A stretch of DNA of 64,000 bases from positions 168,991,310-169,055,309 of the forward strand of contig NC_134837.1 of assembly GCF_004210375.1 (NCBI RefSeq). The letters are read 5' to 3'. A program made the translations under genes and the position numbers. Origin of the DNA: Tachypleus tridentatus (lineage: Eukaryota > Arthropoda > Merostomata > Xiphosura > Limulidae). Below are positions 16,296 to 48,657 of the stretch, in pieces (position 1 is the stretch's first letter; each line of letters begins with the position of its first letter). A model generated the notes under the pieces. It was given only the letters and a program-made list of their open reading frames with translations. It searched no databases and was not told the DNA's origin.

Positions 16296-18669
16296 ATAAA
16301 CTAAAGTAAAGGCAGCAAGACAGGGGCTACTTTATTGGGATGGCGTGATCTGCTTGTCATATATTTTGATCATTGTGTTTGTTTAATAATGTATGGTATG
16401 GATACAGTAAGAGAGACGCCATTTTAAGTCAGCTGTTTTTATTGCATCTCGTTTGTCAGAGAAAACCAGAATTCATTGTGGCTTTACCAACTTAATTTCC
16501 AGTATGTAAATTAAGTTTATTAATATCTTATAGGCACGTAGATGTTAAAATTGCTACTCAAGTTGGATAATTTAATAAATATTCAAGTCTTTTATTATAA
16601 TTGAACTTTTCTGTTAGATTTCTTCTTTAAACATGATTTAATAGTTTGCTATATATATGTATTCATTTAGACACACCATATTGACCTACTGATTTGGAAC
16701 GCATGTGCTGTTTTCCTCCAGTTATGCTTATTAATCTGGCAATGTTCTCAGAAATATCGTTTATTGTTCGACGAATGAGGGATATAAACCATTTTATATT
16801 TATTCCTAGAATAAAATAAAACTCTTGTCTTGAATTGACTTTTTATACAATCATAAGTATACTTACGTTTTTTTTTTATTCTCAACAGCAAGTAAACCTT
16901 GAGAGGTTATAATAGTAATAAGTATTTAATTATTATTTAAATCCCCCTACAGACTCAGATGCTTTAAAAAACCTTTATCTATTTTATCGTTATAAAATTG
17001 CCAAGGTTCAATAATTAGAGTTTATGAGAGTATCCTTACTTGGCCCTGAGAAAGTGAACGACAGAAACCGGTTCTGGAAACACTCCAAGGAACCAGTTAA
17101 ACTTCTGTCGTTTGAGCGAAAATGAAATTCAATAATTCCGTATTGAATGTGTTATAGGTTGATGCAAATACAGTCAATATTTCTCCACTGGTTACAGAGA
17201 TATATTATTTTGTGGTATTACATGATCAGTCAGGTTTAGTCATGATACACTAATTACAACAACATCCAACGAACGTATTACCTTTTAGCAATCTCTATAA
17301 CTCCACTTATATTTGTAGAAGTTGTCCTACTTACTCTACTATTTCCTTTTGTTTATTGTATTATTTTTTCATGAACTTTTGTGTTAACATTAGCTGGTAT
17401 TCTTATTATCAGCATAATTTGGGCATTTGATGAATGTCAGCTAGAAATATTCATTTTTGTAATCCACGAGTTAATTCTGATTGGTTGTGATGATAGATAT
17501 TTTTAATTAATATTTATTACTGCATTCTTAAATGTGTAGAAAGATCGATTATATTACGTTTTGATGTTAGCTGAAACACATAAAGAATTTTAAAGGACTG
17601 GCATAACAATTCCTAACTGTTATACTATTTGATTTTATTGGACATTTTTAACTGTTAAGTTTGGTTTACTTTTGCACAGTTATTTGAAAGTTTTAGCTCA
17701 CAGAATATTTTATTTCTCATTTTGTGCTTTCCATGTTCAAAGCTAGGTTTGCAGGTAAGGAGCAGAATCTATATACAGATGTTTGAAAATATATGTGCAT
17801 TAAATTACAGCATAATATAAATGTTTTTCATAAAATTATGGAATTTGGAAATTATGTTCTCATTTGCTCTTCTTTCACACCAAAGAAATGTTAGATATGA
17901 TAATAGATCTTTGTTCATTTACAAAACAATATATAAATTAAAGTATGAAGTTACAGTAAAGACAATAAGAGGAATACAACTATCATTGATCAAGCCTTTC
18001 TCTCTTTTCAGGTATGTAAATTTGTATTCAAAACTGATGCTTAAATCTATAAAATGAGCTCTAGCTTAAACAATTTGAATAGGGGAAACAAAGATGGAAT
18101 CATCCACATTGATTCAAAGATTTGTTACCAGGAAGTTTGAGTTTTTAGAATCGGAATAAAAAATATTGTCAGCAAATAATATGATCGCAGTTGGCTGATT
18201 TATCATATCTTTTTAAACTTTTAACGGTAGGAACAAACAAACAAATGAAATGTTGATTGGAATTAGCGTAATTTTAAATTACTTTTAAAAATAGTGAAAA
18301 GATTCATACGAAAAAAACAACTAAGATGGTGGCTGATGGAAGAATTGATACACTGATATACTGAACTTGATTGAGACACAACTAATGGTTTTCTAATATG
18401 ATACTCTCGTTTAATTACTAATGGGACTTTTTGGCTAACTTTATTATGTTTCATTTTATTAGCGAAGTCTTTTTCATGTTCTAATTTTACAAACGATGAA
18501 TTAAAACATCAAACTTAAAACTAAGTTACAGAGAATATTTATAGAATACAGATATGTTTCTGACTTTTGGCTTTCAAAGCTAGGTGATTAAAATAAACTA
18601 GATGCAAAGAACTAAACATTACAGGTCTTTGTTAAATGCAGTGATTTAATGATCGACCAGGATGCTAAT
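16296..18669. other. No gene seen
   Basis: AT-rich DNA. Apart from the hairpin at 17.06 kb, only short open frames without domains, for example a basic 78-codon frame at 17821-18057. Confidence 0.5.
17057..17112. other. Compact imperfect hairpin
   Basis: AACGACAGAA at 17057-17066 pairs with TTCTGTCGTT at 17103-17112. Inside it, GGTTC-TGG can pair with CCA-AG-GAACC around an AAACACT loop. I see no known RNA family. Confidence 0.4.
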
Positions 18670-18751
18670 GTTGCCAAGCTTATGTGACAATAATCTTTAC
18701 CAACGCTTTTCCAGACACGTTGAATGGCTACAGTGTTTCACATACCAGTCT
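18670..18751 (+). repeat. Source or sister copy of the foldback spacer
   Basis: This 82-bp stretch, GTTGCCAAGCTTATGTG to ACCAGTCT, recurs at 19552-19629 with a 4-bp deletion and about one substitution. The near-identity indicates a recent local duplication tied to the Penelope-like insertion. Confidence 0.85.
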
Positions 18752-19507
18752 CATCATGGAAGGTGAATGTCTGGTCCATAGAGTAGGCTTAGACGTGTAC
18801 TCGAATAAAAACTTTATAAAGGTCACATCGTTTCCTGACACCAGCTGGCCTTGGGCTCTTTGCAAGTTGAATTTTCAAACGACCGGTTCTTATTCTGCCT
18901 GGAAAACCAAAGAAATGCATAAATCCAGATGGTAGAGAAGACCAAGAACTCTTGGATAGCAACATTATACTTGTATGTAGTTCTTCACCAGCTTTGCCTT
19001 TTGGTAGCACGTGACAGTTGATAAGTCAAGTACCTTTCTGGTGGTCACCAGACCAACTTTTTATGTTGGTAGCTCTAGGTCATTTAAGGAGTGAAATCGT
19101 TAATGGCACTTCACATTACTTAACCTGAAATATCAACATAAAAATAAAACAGGTGGTAAGTGCTGACTCGAGAAAGTTCTAAACAACAACTTATATTTTT
19201 TTTCTTTTTCTCGATTTAAAAACCAAAGTCAGCATTTATCAATGTAATTGTAGTGCAAACAATATAAATTGAAATTGTTCTTGCGTAAACGCCTTTGTTT
19301 AAGTGTGTTTGTAATTAATTATGTTTGTCATCAGATACTGTAGTACTAGGCTTGTTCGATCCCTTAAGGTTTCTTTCCAGGAAAAGTGTATTATAGTATT
19401 TGAACCAAACAATGGCTCGCCATCAGTGATGTCGAGAAACCCACTTGTTGAGAAATATATATGTAAAAACGGCTCGTTTGGGTTAAGAAAATATTTTACA
19501 TAGAAGA

Positions 19508-19549
19508 GCGAACAACGTTTCGACCTTCGTCGGTCATCGTCAGGTTCAC
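19508..19549 (-). ncRNA. Hammerhead ribozyme-like motif, minus strand
   Basis: Read on the minus strand: helix I GTGAAC/GTTCGC (six pairs, one G-U), core CTGACGA (CUGANGA consensus), helix II TGACC...GGTC, core GAAA, and an extremely short helix III made by ACGT, with a predicted cleavage position after GTT. All conserved core bases are present. Minimal helix III type I hammerheads of this form are known from Penelope-like elements and are thought to cut best as dimers. Confidence 0.6.
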
Positions 19550-19631
19550 AGGTTGCCAAGCTTATGTGACAATAATCTTTACCAACGCTCTTCCACGTTG
19601 AATGGCTACAGTGTTTCACATACCAGTCTTT

Positions 19632-19673
19632 GTGAATCTGACGATGACCGAAGAAGGTCGAAACGTTGTTCGC
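19632..19673 (+). ncRNA. Hammerhead ribozyme-like motif, plus strand
   Basis: This is the mate of the minus-strand motif in the same foldback. Helix I is GTGAAT/GTTCGC (with a terminal G-U next to the core). The core is CTGACGA, helix II TGACC-GAAGAA-GGTC, then GAAACGTT. The core matches CUGANGA...GAAA. Activity is unproven. Confidence 0.6.
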
Positions 19674-19945
19674 TCTTCTATGTAAAATATTTTCTCAACC
19701 CAAACGAGCCGTTTTTGCATATATAATGGCTCGCCATGTTTGTTGACGACGATCGCTTCACGCAACGCTTATGTTGTTGAAGTAATTTTATCCATCATTC
19801 TTCTCGAAAAAAACCCATTAAAGAACAGAATATAGAATGTAGTGTATTTATTCCATTCGCTTATACAAAATATAACTGATAATAAAAATTACCTTTTAAA
19901 AATTAAAGACAAAAGAAATAAACAAATGCATTATGTAATACGGAC

Positions 19946-20243
19946 TGAAGGTTTACTGTTTGTTTTGGAATTTCGCACAAAGCTACTCGAGAGCTATCTG
20001 TGCTAGCCGTCCCTAATTTAGCAGTGTAAGACTAGAGGGAAGGCAGCTAGTCATCACCACCCACCGCCAACTCTTGGGATACTCTTTTACCAACGATTAG
20101 TGGGATTGACCATCACATTATAACGTCCCCACGGCTGGGAGGGCGAGCATGTTTGGCGCTACTCGGGCGCGAACCCGCGACCCTCAGAGTACGAAGCGCA
20201 CGCCTTAACGCGCTAGGCCATGCCAGGCCCAGTGAAGGTTTAC
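19946..20243 (-). mobile_element. SINE-A copy, young GCGC subfamily, with 11-bp duplication
   Basis: The SINE (19957-20232) is flanked by TGAAGGTTTAC on both sides (19946-19956 and 20233-20243). The head region has the CGGGCGCGAACCCGCG subfamily signature. Confidence 0.95.
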
Positions 20244-20879: not shown

Positions 20880-21072
20880 TCAAACAGTTTCAGCCGTGGA
20901 GGTGTTATATGTGACAGTCAATTCCAATATTCGTTTGTAAAAGTAGCCCAAGAGTTGGCGGTGGGTGGTGATGACTAGCTGCCTTCCTCTAGTCTTACAC
21001 TGCTAAATTAGGGACGGCTAGCGCAGATAGCTCTCGAGTAGCTTTCTGCGAAATTCAAAAACAAACAAACAA
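20880..21072 (+). mobile_element. SINE-A copy lacking the head
   Basis: It begins CAGCCGTGGAGGTG and ends GCGAAATTCAAAAACAAAC; 5' truncated. Confidence 0.88.
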
Positions 21073-21483: not shown

Positions 21484-21724
21484 ACAACTTGCAAAATTCT
21501 TCCTCTTTTTGGTTCATTATAACTTTTTCCTACTAGAAAAGGCTTTATTTCTAACTAAAAACATTTTTCTTATATCATATTCTTTAAACTAAAGAATGCT
21601 TCTTACATGAATAATTTTCTGAATAAAAAATTCAGATTCACACTTGTATTTAAAAAGTTAAAAATACATATCTTGAATGTTATATTCACCTCTTCTGTGG
21701 CATAAAGGAAGTGATCACCAATTG

Positions 21725-22001
21725 TTTGTTTGTTTGTTTTGAATTTTGCGCAAAGCTACACAAGAGCTATCTGCCCAACCATCCCTAATTTAGTAGTGTA
21801 ACACTAGAGAGAAGGCAGCTAGTCATCACCACCCACCGCTAACTCTTGGGCTACTCTTTTACCAACGAATAGTGAGATTGACCGTCACATTATAACACCC
21901 TCACGGCTAAAAGGGCGAGCATGTTTGGTGTGGCGGGGATTCGAACCCGCGACTCTCAGATTACGACTCGAGTGCCTTAGCCACCTGGCCGTGCTGGGCC
22001 A
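21725..22001 (-). mobile_element. SINE-A copy, full length
   Basis: Tail (GTTT)n from 21723; the head ends GGCCGTGCTGGGCC; box B GGGATTCGAACCCGCG is intact. Confidence 0.92.
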
Positions 22002-35318: not shown

Positions 35319-35391
35319 GCGTTTGTGATGTAGTGGTTATCACATCCGCCTCACACGCGGAAGGTCCCAGGTTCGATACCTGGCAGGAAAA
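35319..35391 (+). tRNA. tRNA-Val(CAC)-like gene with damaged acceptor arm, possibly a pseudogene
   Basis: The D arm ATGT/ACAT, anticodon stem TCCGC/GCGGA with loop CTCACAC (anticodon CAC, Val) and T arm CCAGG-TTCGATA-CCTGG are all perfect. A TTTT pol III terminator follows at 35392. The 3' acceptor strand CAGGAAA pairs with only four of seven bases directly upstream (GCGTTTG). A fully pairing TTTTCTG lies 10 nt further out at 35309-35315, as if a short insertion had displaced it. A SINE begins right after the terminator. It may be a decayed copy. It differs from the SINE heads, which have other anticodon loops. Confidence 0.6.
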
Positions 35392-46590: not shown

Positions 46591-47148
46591 TTGAAATGCA
46601 AAGTGCAACTTTTGTAATAACAGGACGGGAAAAATGATCTCTTAGGCTCCCACGCATGTGTCCTCATCAGGCTCACATTGTAGAATGTAAAGTGAAATGT
46701 GAAATAAGAATGTAACATTAAATGATCGTGGATCACGGTTATTACAACTTTCATATGACCCAAAAGCTTTAATTTTGTAACTGGTTGTTTATTGTTAGAA
46801 TATCATAGTAATAATGTGAAAAAGAAAGTTTATTTATTTTTTCTTGTAGTTCTTTTTTCAGAGCTTTTGATATTTGATTAATGTATACTAAGTGAAAAGT
46901 CAAATTGATTACGCGTTTAGCCAATAGATGGCACTAAATCCTATACTTCCAATTTTACTTTTTAAAGAAAATTTATGCTTGACACTTGGAATATTAACAT
47001 ATTAAACACGCTACCAATTATAAATTTACCCTAGTGCTTTACACCTGGCATACTTTATTCCAAACTAATTATTGTAAGCACGATTTGTATTAATACAGTT
47101 TATTAGGTTTATTAAACTAAACGGTCACTTGCAAAGTCTTTCATTCTT

Positions 47149-47186
47149 AACCTAAATATGACCTAGAAAGGTCGAAACGTTGTTCT
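47149..47186 (+). ncRNA. Decayed hammerhead-like motif
   Basis: Helix II TGACC/GGTC and GAAACGTT are retained, but the core CTGATGA reads CTAAATA. Loss of core G5 and G8 should abolish cleavage. Confidence 0.5.
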
Positions 47187-47245
47187 CTCCTTATCAATAA
47201 AAGTGTTAAGACATGTGTCCGGCAACAATCACTTGCAAACTTTCT

Positions 47246-47283
47246 TAACCTGATGATGACCAAGGAAGGTCGAAACGTTGTTC
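47246..47283 (+). ncRNA. Hammerhead ribozyme-like motif with canonical core
   Basis: The core CTGATGA (47250-47256), helix II TGACC-AAGGAA-GGTC and GAAACGTT (47272-47279) are all canonical. Helix I is weak: only three pairs, AAC with GTT, next to the core, so efficient cleavage is uncertain. Confidence 0.55.
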
Positions 47284-47996
47284 TTTTCTCATCAATGAAA
47301 GTGTTAATACCCAAACTAGTCGTTCCGAGATACATGGTTATTTGTTCTGCTAAACTGTTCTGCTAAATTCTAACATTTCAGTATCAGTTAAAGACATTAA
47401 AATGAACTCATTTATAAAAGAAAAACCAATGTTGCTTTGAATAGAACATTTTGGTTATATTTTAATAAAACAACGGTTATTTTAAAAACGCATATGAACC
47501 GAATGAAGCAGAATTATTAATATTTATTAAACGTCAGTATTTTCACGATACATCAGAACAAATACAAAAGACTTCGCACATTTAACTGCTAAATATGCAG
47601 AATGCTAAATACATTGCTGTAGTTATAAGAAACGCTCCATTATTTTCAACTGTATAACTAAACTGAATAAAATAGCAATTTATTGAAGACACGATAAAAA
47701 CATGTATAAATATTAGTGGAAATAAATTCGAGTTAATTTAATTTGATCTTCTAATCAAAATGGTATGTCTAATATATTGTAAATCAGTTAATAATTATAT
47801 TTTTACGCCTGTTACACATTCGCAGAAATGATGAAATGTTCAAGACTATCGCATAGCCAAACTGTGTTCACATTTATTACTTACACCTAAGAAGTTATGC
47901 GTAATTGATTCAAATATTTCGAAATCGGTTTAAAGAAGATGGAGAGGTTTTAGGTAAATGACATGACTGAAGAGAAGGGATAGTGTGGACAAATCA

Positions 47997-48182: not shown

Positions 48183-48657
48183 GGCCAGACATACCTAGGT
48201 GGTTAGGGAGCTCGACTCATAATCTGAGGGTCGCAGGTTCGAATCACCGTCACACCAAACAGCCTCGTTCTCTTGACCGTGAAAGGTGTTATAATGTGAC
48301 GATCAATCCCACTGTTCTTTCATAAAATAGTAGCCTAATAGTTGGTGATGGTGGCAATGACTAGCTTCTTTCCCTCTTGCCTAGGCCCGGCATGGCTAGC
48401 GTGTTAAGGCGTGCGACTGATAATCTGAGGGTCGCGGGATCGCATCCCCATCGCGCCAAACATGCTCAACCTTTCAGCCGTGGGGGCGTTATAAGGTTAC
48501 GGTCCAACCCACTATTCGTTGGAAAAAGAGTAGCCCAAGAGTTGGCGGTGGGTGGTGATGATTAGTTGCCTTCCCTCTAGTCTTATACTGCTAAATTAGG
48601 GACGGCTAGCAAAGATAGCCTTCGTGTAGCTTTGCGCAAAATTAGAAAACAAACAAC
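48183..48657 (+). mobile_element. Two SINE-A copies in tandem
   Basis: An older copy (48183-48384) runs from GGCCAGACATACCTAGGTGG to CTTTCCCTCTTGCCTA. There it meets the start of a younger copy, GGCCCGGCATGGCTAGCG, at 48386 with its own tail AAATTAGAAAACAAAC. The younger one either inserted in the older or replaced its end; the older 3' part does not resume. Confidence 0.88.

Follow-up and report, generated by a model that had tools for sequence, protein, structure and literature searches.

The foldback insert and its hammerhead-like motifs

In the window, by which the whole analysed stretch of 64,000 nucleotides of Tachypleus tridentatus DNA is meant, two arms of 95 nt each (19456–19550 and 19631–19725) face each other with 96% complementarity and 80 nt in between. 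The initial annotation had located this foldback at 19456–19725, and the foldback does lie there, but its extent had been drawn too small: the insert comprises 301 bp (19424–19724) and is flanked by a 13-bp direct repeat, AATGGCTCGCCAT, which forms a target-site duplication (TSD). The features of the window are as follows.

18670–18751 (+): single-copy host source of the filler, from the genome search
19411–19423 (no strand): left target-site duplication, AATGGCTCGCCAT
19424–19455 (−): 32-nt Penelope-like element (PLE) 'tail' at the outer end of the left arm, the term being used as in the available text of PMC11167929 and PMC3846280
19456–19550 (−): left arm, a 5'-truncated pLTR 3' end with a hammerhead-like motif, 96% complementary to the right arm and matching the PLE copy at locus L022 at 97%
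19508–19549 (−): left minimal type I hammerhead motif, predicted cut at 19514/19513, after GTT
19551–19629 (+): captured host filler, 94% identity to 18670–18751
19631–19724 (+): right arm, a 5'-truncated pLTR 3' end with a hammerhead-like motif and without a tail, matching the PLE copy at L022 at 99%
19632–19673 (+): right minimal type I hammerhead motif, predicted cut at 19667/19668, after GTT
19725–19737 (no strand): right target-site duplication, AATGGCTCGCCAT
47125–47310 (+): related repeat from a different subfamily, consisting of two units in direct tandem at a spacing of about 98 bp, with the core intact in the second unit (47250–47280) and broken in the first

The tail is found only on the left arm, from which its 32 nt run outward, and the right arm terminates at GCATATAT. 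Aligned to the L022 copy, both arms extend upstream past the predicted cut for 36–40 nt, to about the 5' base of helix I. As judged by eye, TCT at the right junction is common to both neighbours, and the left junction contains one unexplained G. The filler between the arms, of about 78 bp, is a 94% copy of 18670–18751. A genome search with window positions 18620–18900 returned only this segment itself, the foldback filler (94%) and one 75% match on contig C2, which spans positions 106–278 of the query (18725–18897 of the window), which makes single-copy DNA about 0.9 kb upstream the source from which the filler was copied. A reading of the filler source as a coding exon was considered: an open frame of 87 amino acids (18672–18932) spans it and has no match in Pfam or the PDB, and the 75% paralogue has a stop in the one frame translated.

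A hammerhead core is defined by CUGANGA, GAA, the A15.1/U16.1 pair and H17. On opposite strands, each arm carries, in order, CTGACGA, one extra T, GACC, a 6-nt loop, GGTC, GAAACGTT and the six-pair helix I GTGAAY/GTTCGC, and all of the conserved core bases are present in both motifs, so that the earlier statement that every core base occurs twice is borne out, with a minimal type I core in each arm. Among the elements listed at that time, GAAA, ACGT and the helix I strands are seen by eye in both arms; helix II had been given as TGACC/GGTC and is better read as U followed by GACC/GGTC, because one extra U sits between A9 and helix II. The pattern CTGANGAN{6,30}GAAACGTTG matches the window at 19513–19543 (−), 19638–19668 (+) and 47250–47280 (+), with no match in 100 shuffles.

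The motifs found in the fetched loci, with at most two changes from GGTCGAAACGTT and from the core, number 94, of which 52 are distinct. Every core base checked by script is kept in 30 of the 52, and the outer three pairs of helix I form in 34–35. Double (compensatory) changes are nearly absent, occupying four cells over 11 pairs in these 52 motifs, which were selected for closeness to the core, and so do not establish selection on base pairing in this genome. In 261 copies across the genome a single helix II position holds a different base, mostly without compensation among the 100 listed, as judged by eye.

The covariance-model search that the initial annotation had set as its check, with a missing hit to count against the ribozyme, was run with Rfam and gave no hammerhead match in the 64-kb window at gathering thresholds, nor at E ≤ 10 around the foldback or in four related loci (L022, L027, L178 and L167). 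This result is taken as weak evidence, because the Rfam hammerhead models presumably expect a helix III, which is missing from PLE hammerheads.

A very large family of probable Penelope-like elements

In the 2,167,478,450 bases of the genome searched, the hammerhead-core 16-mer GGTCGAAACGTTGTTC occurs exactly 22,639 times (11,223 + 11,416) and never when read backwards, and the 3'-end 20-mer AACCCAAACGAGCCGTTTTT occurs 12,228 times (6,187 + 6,041), with a control count of 0; these counts place the motif in a very large repeat family and make it ordinary, far from rare, in this genome. At L022, two such arms bound an insert of 3.8 kb that contains long frames with reverse transcriptase (RT)-like motifs on both strands. 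In the two loci tested, frames between the arms match RVT_1 (E = 1.4e-12 for the plus-strand frame of L022 and 1.9e-8 for that of L034), RVT_1 being a general RT model and not one specific to the telomerase-like PLE clade. The GIY-YIG endonuclease domain is a feature of canonical PLEs; the single frame searched for it, of 129 amino acids downstream of the RT (L022:4981–5367), has no Pfam match at E ≤ 0.01 and leaves GIY-YIG unconfirmed. The pLTR ends carry an optional tail of 30–40 nt and are bordered by a short TSD, as in Penelope-like elements. Jointly, the RT, the tailed ends, the head-to-head arms, the short TSDs and the minimal hammerhead close to the terminus indicate a Penelope-like element, in agreement with the initial annotation, which had proposed a minimal type I hammerhead of the PLE kind; in L022 and L034 the RT frame lies between the same arms. 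In viral contigs, two exact-pattern scans gave seven loci, none with a hammerhead context as judged by eye, and a 15-base pattern gave at least 120 stretches, a number that, on a rough estimate, chance might produce by itself.

Minimal type I hammerheads of PLEs were reportedly described by Cervera and De la Pena in 2014, and Lunse et al. in 2017 are reported to have found that these hammerheads cleave as dimers. The motifs described here resemble the PLE hammerheads in having a core without a helix III loop and in being dispersed in thousands, and may differ in the single U noted here between A9 and helix II. Published PLEs do carry minimal hammerheads, as described in the available text of PMC6155905, PMC7761336 and PMC11167929. 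The closest parallel in arrangement is in the Penelope-like elements of PMC3846280, the available text of which describes inverted pLTRs, one of which bears a tail, with captured host DNA in between, and the initial annotation's impression that such an arrangement had not been described does not hold. The motif is real, the element class is known and the facing arrangement is known. In the Adineta vaga Pen families of the same source the TSDs measure 8–10 bp, as given in its available text, whereas they are mostly near 13 bp here; moreover, many of the sampled pairs here are short foldbacks, partly by locus choice, the hammerhead core exceeds 22,000 copies and the filler of the window is a short local fragment.

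The lizard element PAc (Poseidon, Anolis carolinensis), as far as the available text of PMC11167929 describes it, likewise has a hammerhead lying immediately upstream of where RT starts internally, a pair of neighbouring start sites with a 30–40-nt tail between them, an AC-rich stretch near the start site (seen here by eye) and an ATG at the start of stem II. PAc is described there as tandem repeats, without mention of inverted genomic pairs, whereas the pair here is inverted, and the frame from the ATG here has, by eye, only 13 codons, unlike in PAc. Non-LTR retrozymes share type I hammerheads in short low-GC repeats but are direct tandem repeats giving circRNAs (available text of PMC7229834), whereas here the pair is inverted. 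The foldback was accordingly rejected as a retrozyme, direct tandem units bounded by hammerheads being absent.

Two other arrangements of the motif are direct. The tandem at 47125–47310, unlike the foldback, is able in principle to give a cis dimer. On contig C4 (G000:C4:25949612–25949643 and 25949824–25949855), two hammerhead-like motifs lie on the same strand, 212 bp apart; their helix II is GGCC/GGCC and thus differs from the usual GACC/GGTC by a compensated change. The window also contains copies of a dispersed repeat (19951–20207, 20939–21072, 21724–21979 and 48190–48600), some with a tRNA-like stretch, which is probably a SINE family; a tRNA family match at 35324–35385 (38.2 bits) is possibly SINE-derived.

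Predicted folding of the foldback transcript

The initial annotation had suggested that the inverted pair on one transcript could pair arm to arm or act as a double ribozyme. The first suggestion is consistent with the prediction of a near-complete duplex: the minimum free energy (MFE) of the foldback is −171.9 kcal/mol, compared with a mean of −65.0 for shuffled sequences (z −21.3). The second requires that one transcript carry both motifs in working form, acting either in cis or as a dimer formed via the palindrome AACGTT. All core bases are indeed present in both arms, helices I and II form in silico when the 44-nt motifs are folded in isolation (helix II with a pairing probability of 0.98–1.00), and PLE minimal hammerheads are reported in the available text of PMC7761336 to cleave as dimers. 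However, each strand of the foldback holds one sense and one antisense motif, so that two sense motifs never share a strand, and the antisense motif is transcribed first in either direction. In the folding predictions, the pairing probability of helix II falls to about 1e-15 in the full transcript of either strand and is 0.000 in each growing transcript printed. Together with the stability of the duplex and the missing Rfam match, these points make a functional double ribozyme highly improbable, and its operation on one transcript was rejected on geometry and predicted folding. The prediction is instead that the hammerhead pairs with the antisense arm of the same foldback and is thereby trapped and silenced. 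Even the isolated motif favours, in these predictions, a GACG/CGUU pairing inside the core, which is consistent with a weak monomer.

Inverted pairs, single tails and the priming of insertion

Among 100 listed of the 12,228 places with the 3'-end 20-mer, there are 23 pairs of neighbouring arms within 5 kb, 22 of them head to head and one on the same strand. The fetched loci (L016–L035 and L156–L186, all lying in contig C1 within its first 10 Mb), together with the window, contain 37 neighbouring arm pairs within 6 kb: 34 are head to head, one is −−, one ++ and one +−. Nineteen of the 20 loci L016–L035 were picked for neighbouring motifs and L176–L186 for short pairs, tails being ignored in the choice, and the set is therefore uninformative on how often insertions are paired or short. 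Exactly one arm is tailed in 32 of the 34 inverted pairs and, once seven second copies (L020, L021, L157, L176, L181, L186 and L177) had been dropped, in 26 of the 27 distinct pairs, the tailed arm being the left-hand one in 12. The TSD score reaches 10 or more in 22 of these 27 pairs, compared with three of 702 mismatched left–right pairings. The sole exception to the single tail is L034, which has two tails and no TSD and appears to consist of nested insertions; scores below 10 occur in four other pairs (L024, L168, L170 and L182).

Seven foldbacks are each represented twice in the fetched loci, which might suggest a small mobile element, MITE- or retrozyme-like, spreading as a unit. All seven, however, are duplicated together with DNA well outside the insert, and because their outside flanks are duplicated too they are passengers; in addition, the filler of the window is found only at the foldback and its source. 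With shared flanks in seven of seven cases, the mobile unit is unsupported, and it is the least probable of the explanations considered here.

Non-PLE filler is clear in two of the 27 distinct inverted pairs, those of the window and of L030. The filler of L030 (1742–2154, 413 nt) is a separate repeat with at least 45 genome matches, a lower bound obtained from 40 scored candidates of 495. At L161, 25 nt of filler, and at L163 and L178, 15–18 nt, are without assignment, and the stretch of L023 that the arms leave uncovered matches PLE copies in other loci. These counts do not bear out capture of local host DNA as a general rule, clear non-PLE filler being present in only two of 27 pairs and that of L030 being a repeat.

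The foldback is probably the product of one abortive insertion of a Penelope-like retrotransposon, with priming from both target strands. The sequence itself contains two inverted pLTR ends, a 301-bp insert, a 13-bp TSD, one tail and host filler, and it is from this structure that we infer two-strand priming. The element's endonuclease would make a staggered cut, and the 3' end of each DNA strand would prime cDNA synthesis inside the element RNA, the parental RNA to which the hammerhead would belong. The two cDNAs would begin at two neighbouring start sites, one each, which would give exactly one tail; both would run through the hammerhead and stop close to the 5' base of helix I, and a head-to-head joint would then form between their ends, in this case bridged by a stretch templated on DNA or RNA from nearby. 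The hammerhead would lie near the insert ends because reverse transcription would start just downstream of it, and priming of both strands at different start sites would yield two outward 3' ends, one tail, one TSD and a central joint.

The available text of PMC11167929 describes, for a lizard PLE, a protein that cuts and extends both DNA strands, with reverse transcription beginning internally at two neighbouring sites that enclose the 'tail'. The division of the start sites between the strands is a proposal of the present analysis, since no difference in start site between the strands was seen in that work. The one-tail rule is not claimed as unpublished, because the available text of PMC3846280 calls the tail optional on one inverted pLTR, citing an earlier source.

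An inverted repeat could also arise through snap-back, in which self-priming on a sense or antisense template takes the place of priming from both target strands, and the available text of PMC3846280 proposes self-priming from palindromes at inverted junctions, on the antisense template, for rotifer Penelope. In L018, L026 and L182 the arms overlap palindromically, as this route would favour. At L160 (near 3049) and L171 (near 3035), a short reverse complement of the 5' side of the hammerhead abuts the motif, as seen by eye; these junctions look like cDNA ends folded back at the hammerhead, and given them self-priming may also happen. Snap-back, however, copies the arm that is folded on, so that by our reasoning a tail on one arm (26 of 27 pairs) would not be predicted, and likewise not the host filler between the arms of the window. 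As the source of the inverted repeat, self-priming is thus unlikely, and two-strand priming is preferred.

A separate question is whether the element RNA is cleaved in vivo by its hammerhead and, in cleaved form, usually serves as the template for insertion, in which case many copies would begin at +1. In three arms (L168, L179 and L184) the first base is indeed at +1 or +2 relative to the predicted cut. However, genome-wide exact suffix counts show no excess of copies starting at the predicted cut site, declining from 6,165 (+3) through 5,950 (+1) to 5,735 (−1), with 215 lost at each step; both arms of the window extend through the whole motif; and catalytic mutants are without effect on insertion in vitro (available text of PMC11167929). 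A cut RNA as the usual template is accordingly very unlikely. Further upstream, where a peak of cDNA ends at the 5' base of helix I was sought, the counts are 7,735 at −32, 6,773 at −35 and 5,936 at −38, with 12.4% lost per 3-nt step; the loss near the 5' base of helix I is higher per base than at the cut site and without a step at −35, and the comparison is confounded by subfamilies that differ there (TTCGTGAAC and TTTATGAAC).

In conclusion, the one-tail regularity in a very large family is the part of these results worth pursuing. We tentatively suggest, with somewhat less than even confidence, that it results from the priming of both strands of one staggered cut, each at a different RNA start site, and that head-to-head foldbacks would then be what two-ended target-primed reverse transcription normally yields, rather than rearranged debris. 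If this is true, the many foldbacks of this genome (22 pairs among the 100 listed 3' ends) would record two-ended priming. These copies also bear on the function of PLE hammerheads: insertions start at the cut no more often than beside it. How Penelope elements integrate is understood only in part, and two-strand priming has so far been seen in vitro for one lizard element; the more than 12,000 exact 3'-end 20-mers of this genome provide a fossil record in which it can be tested through tails, TSDs and junctions.
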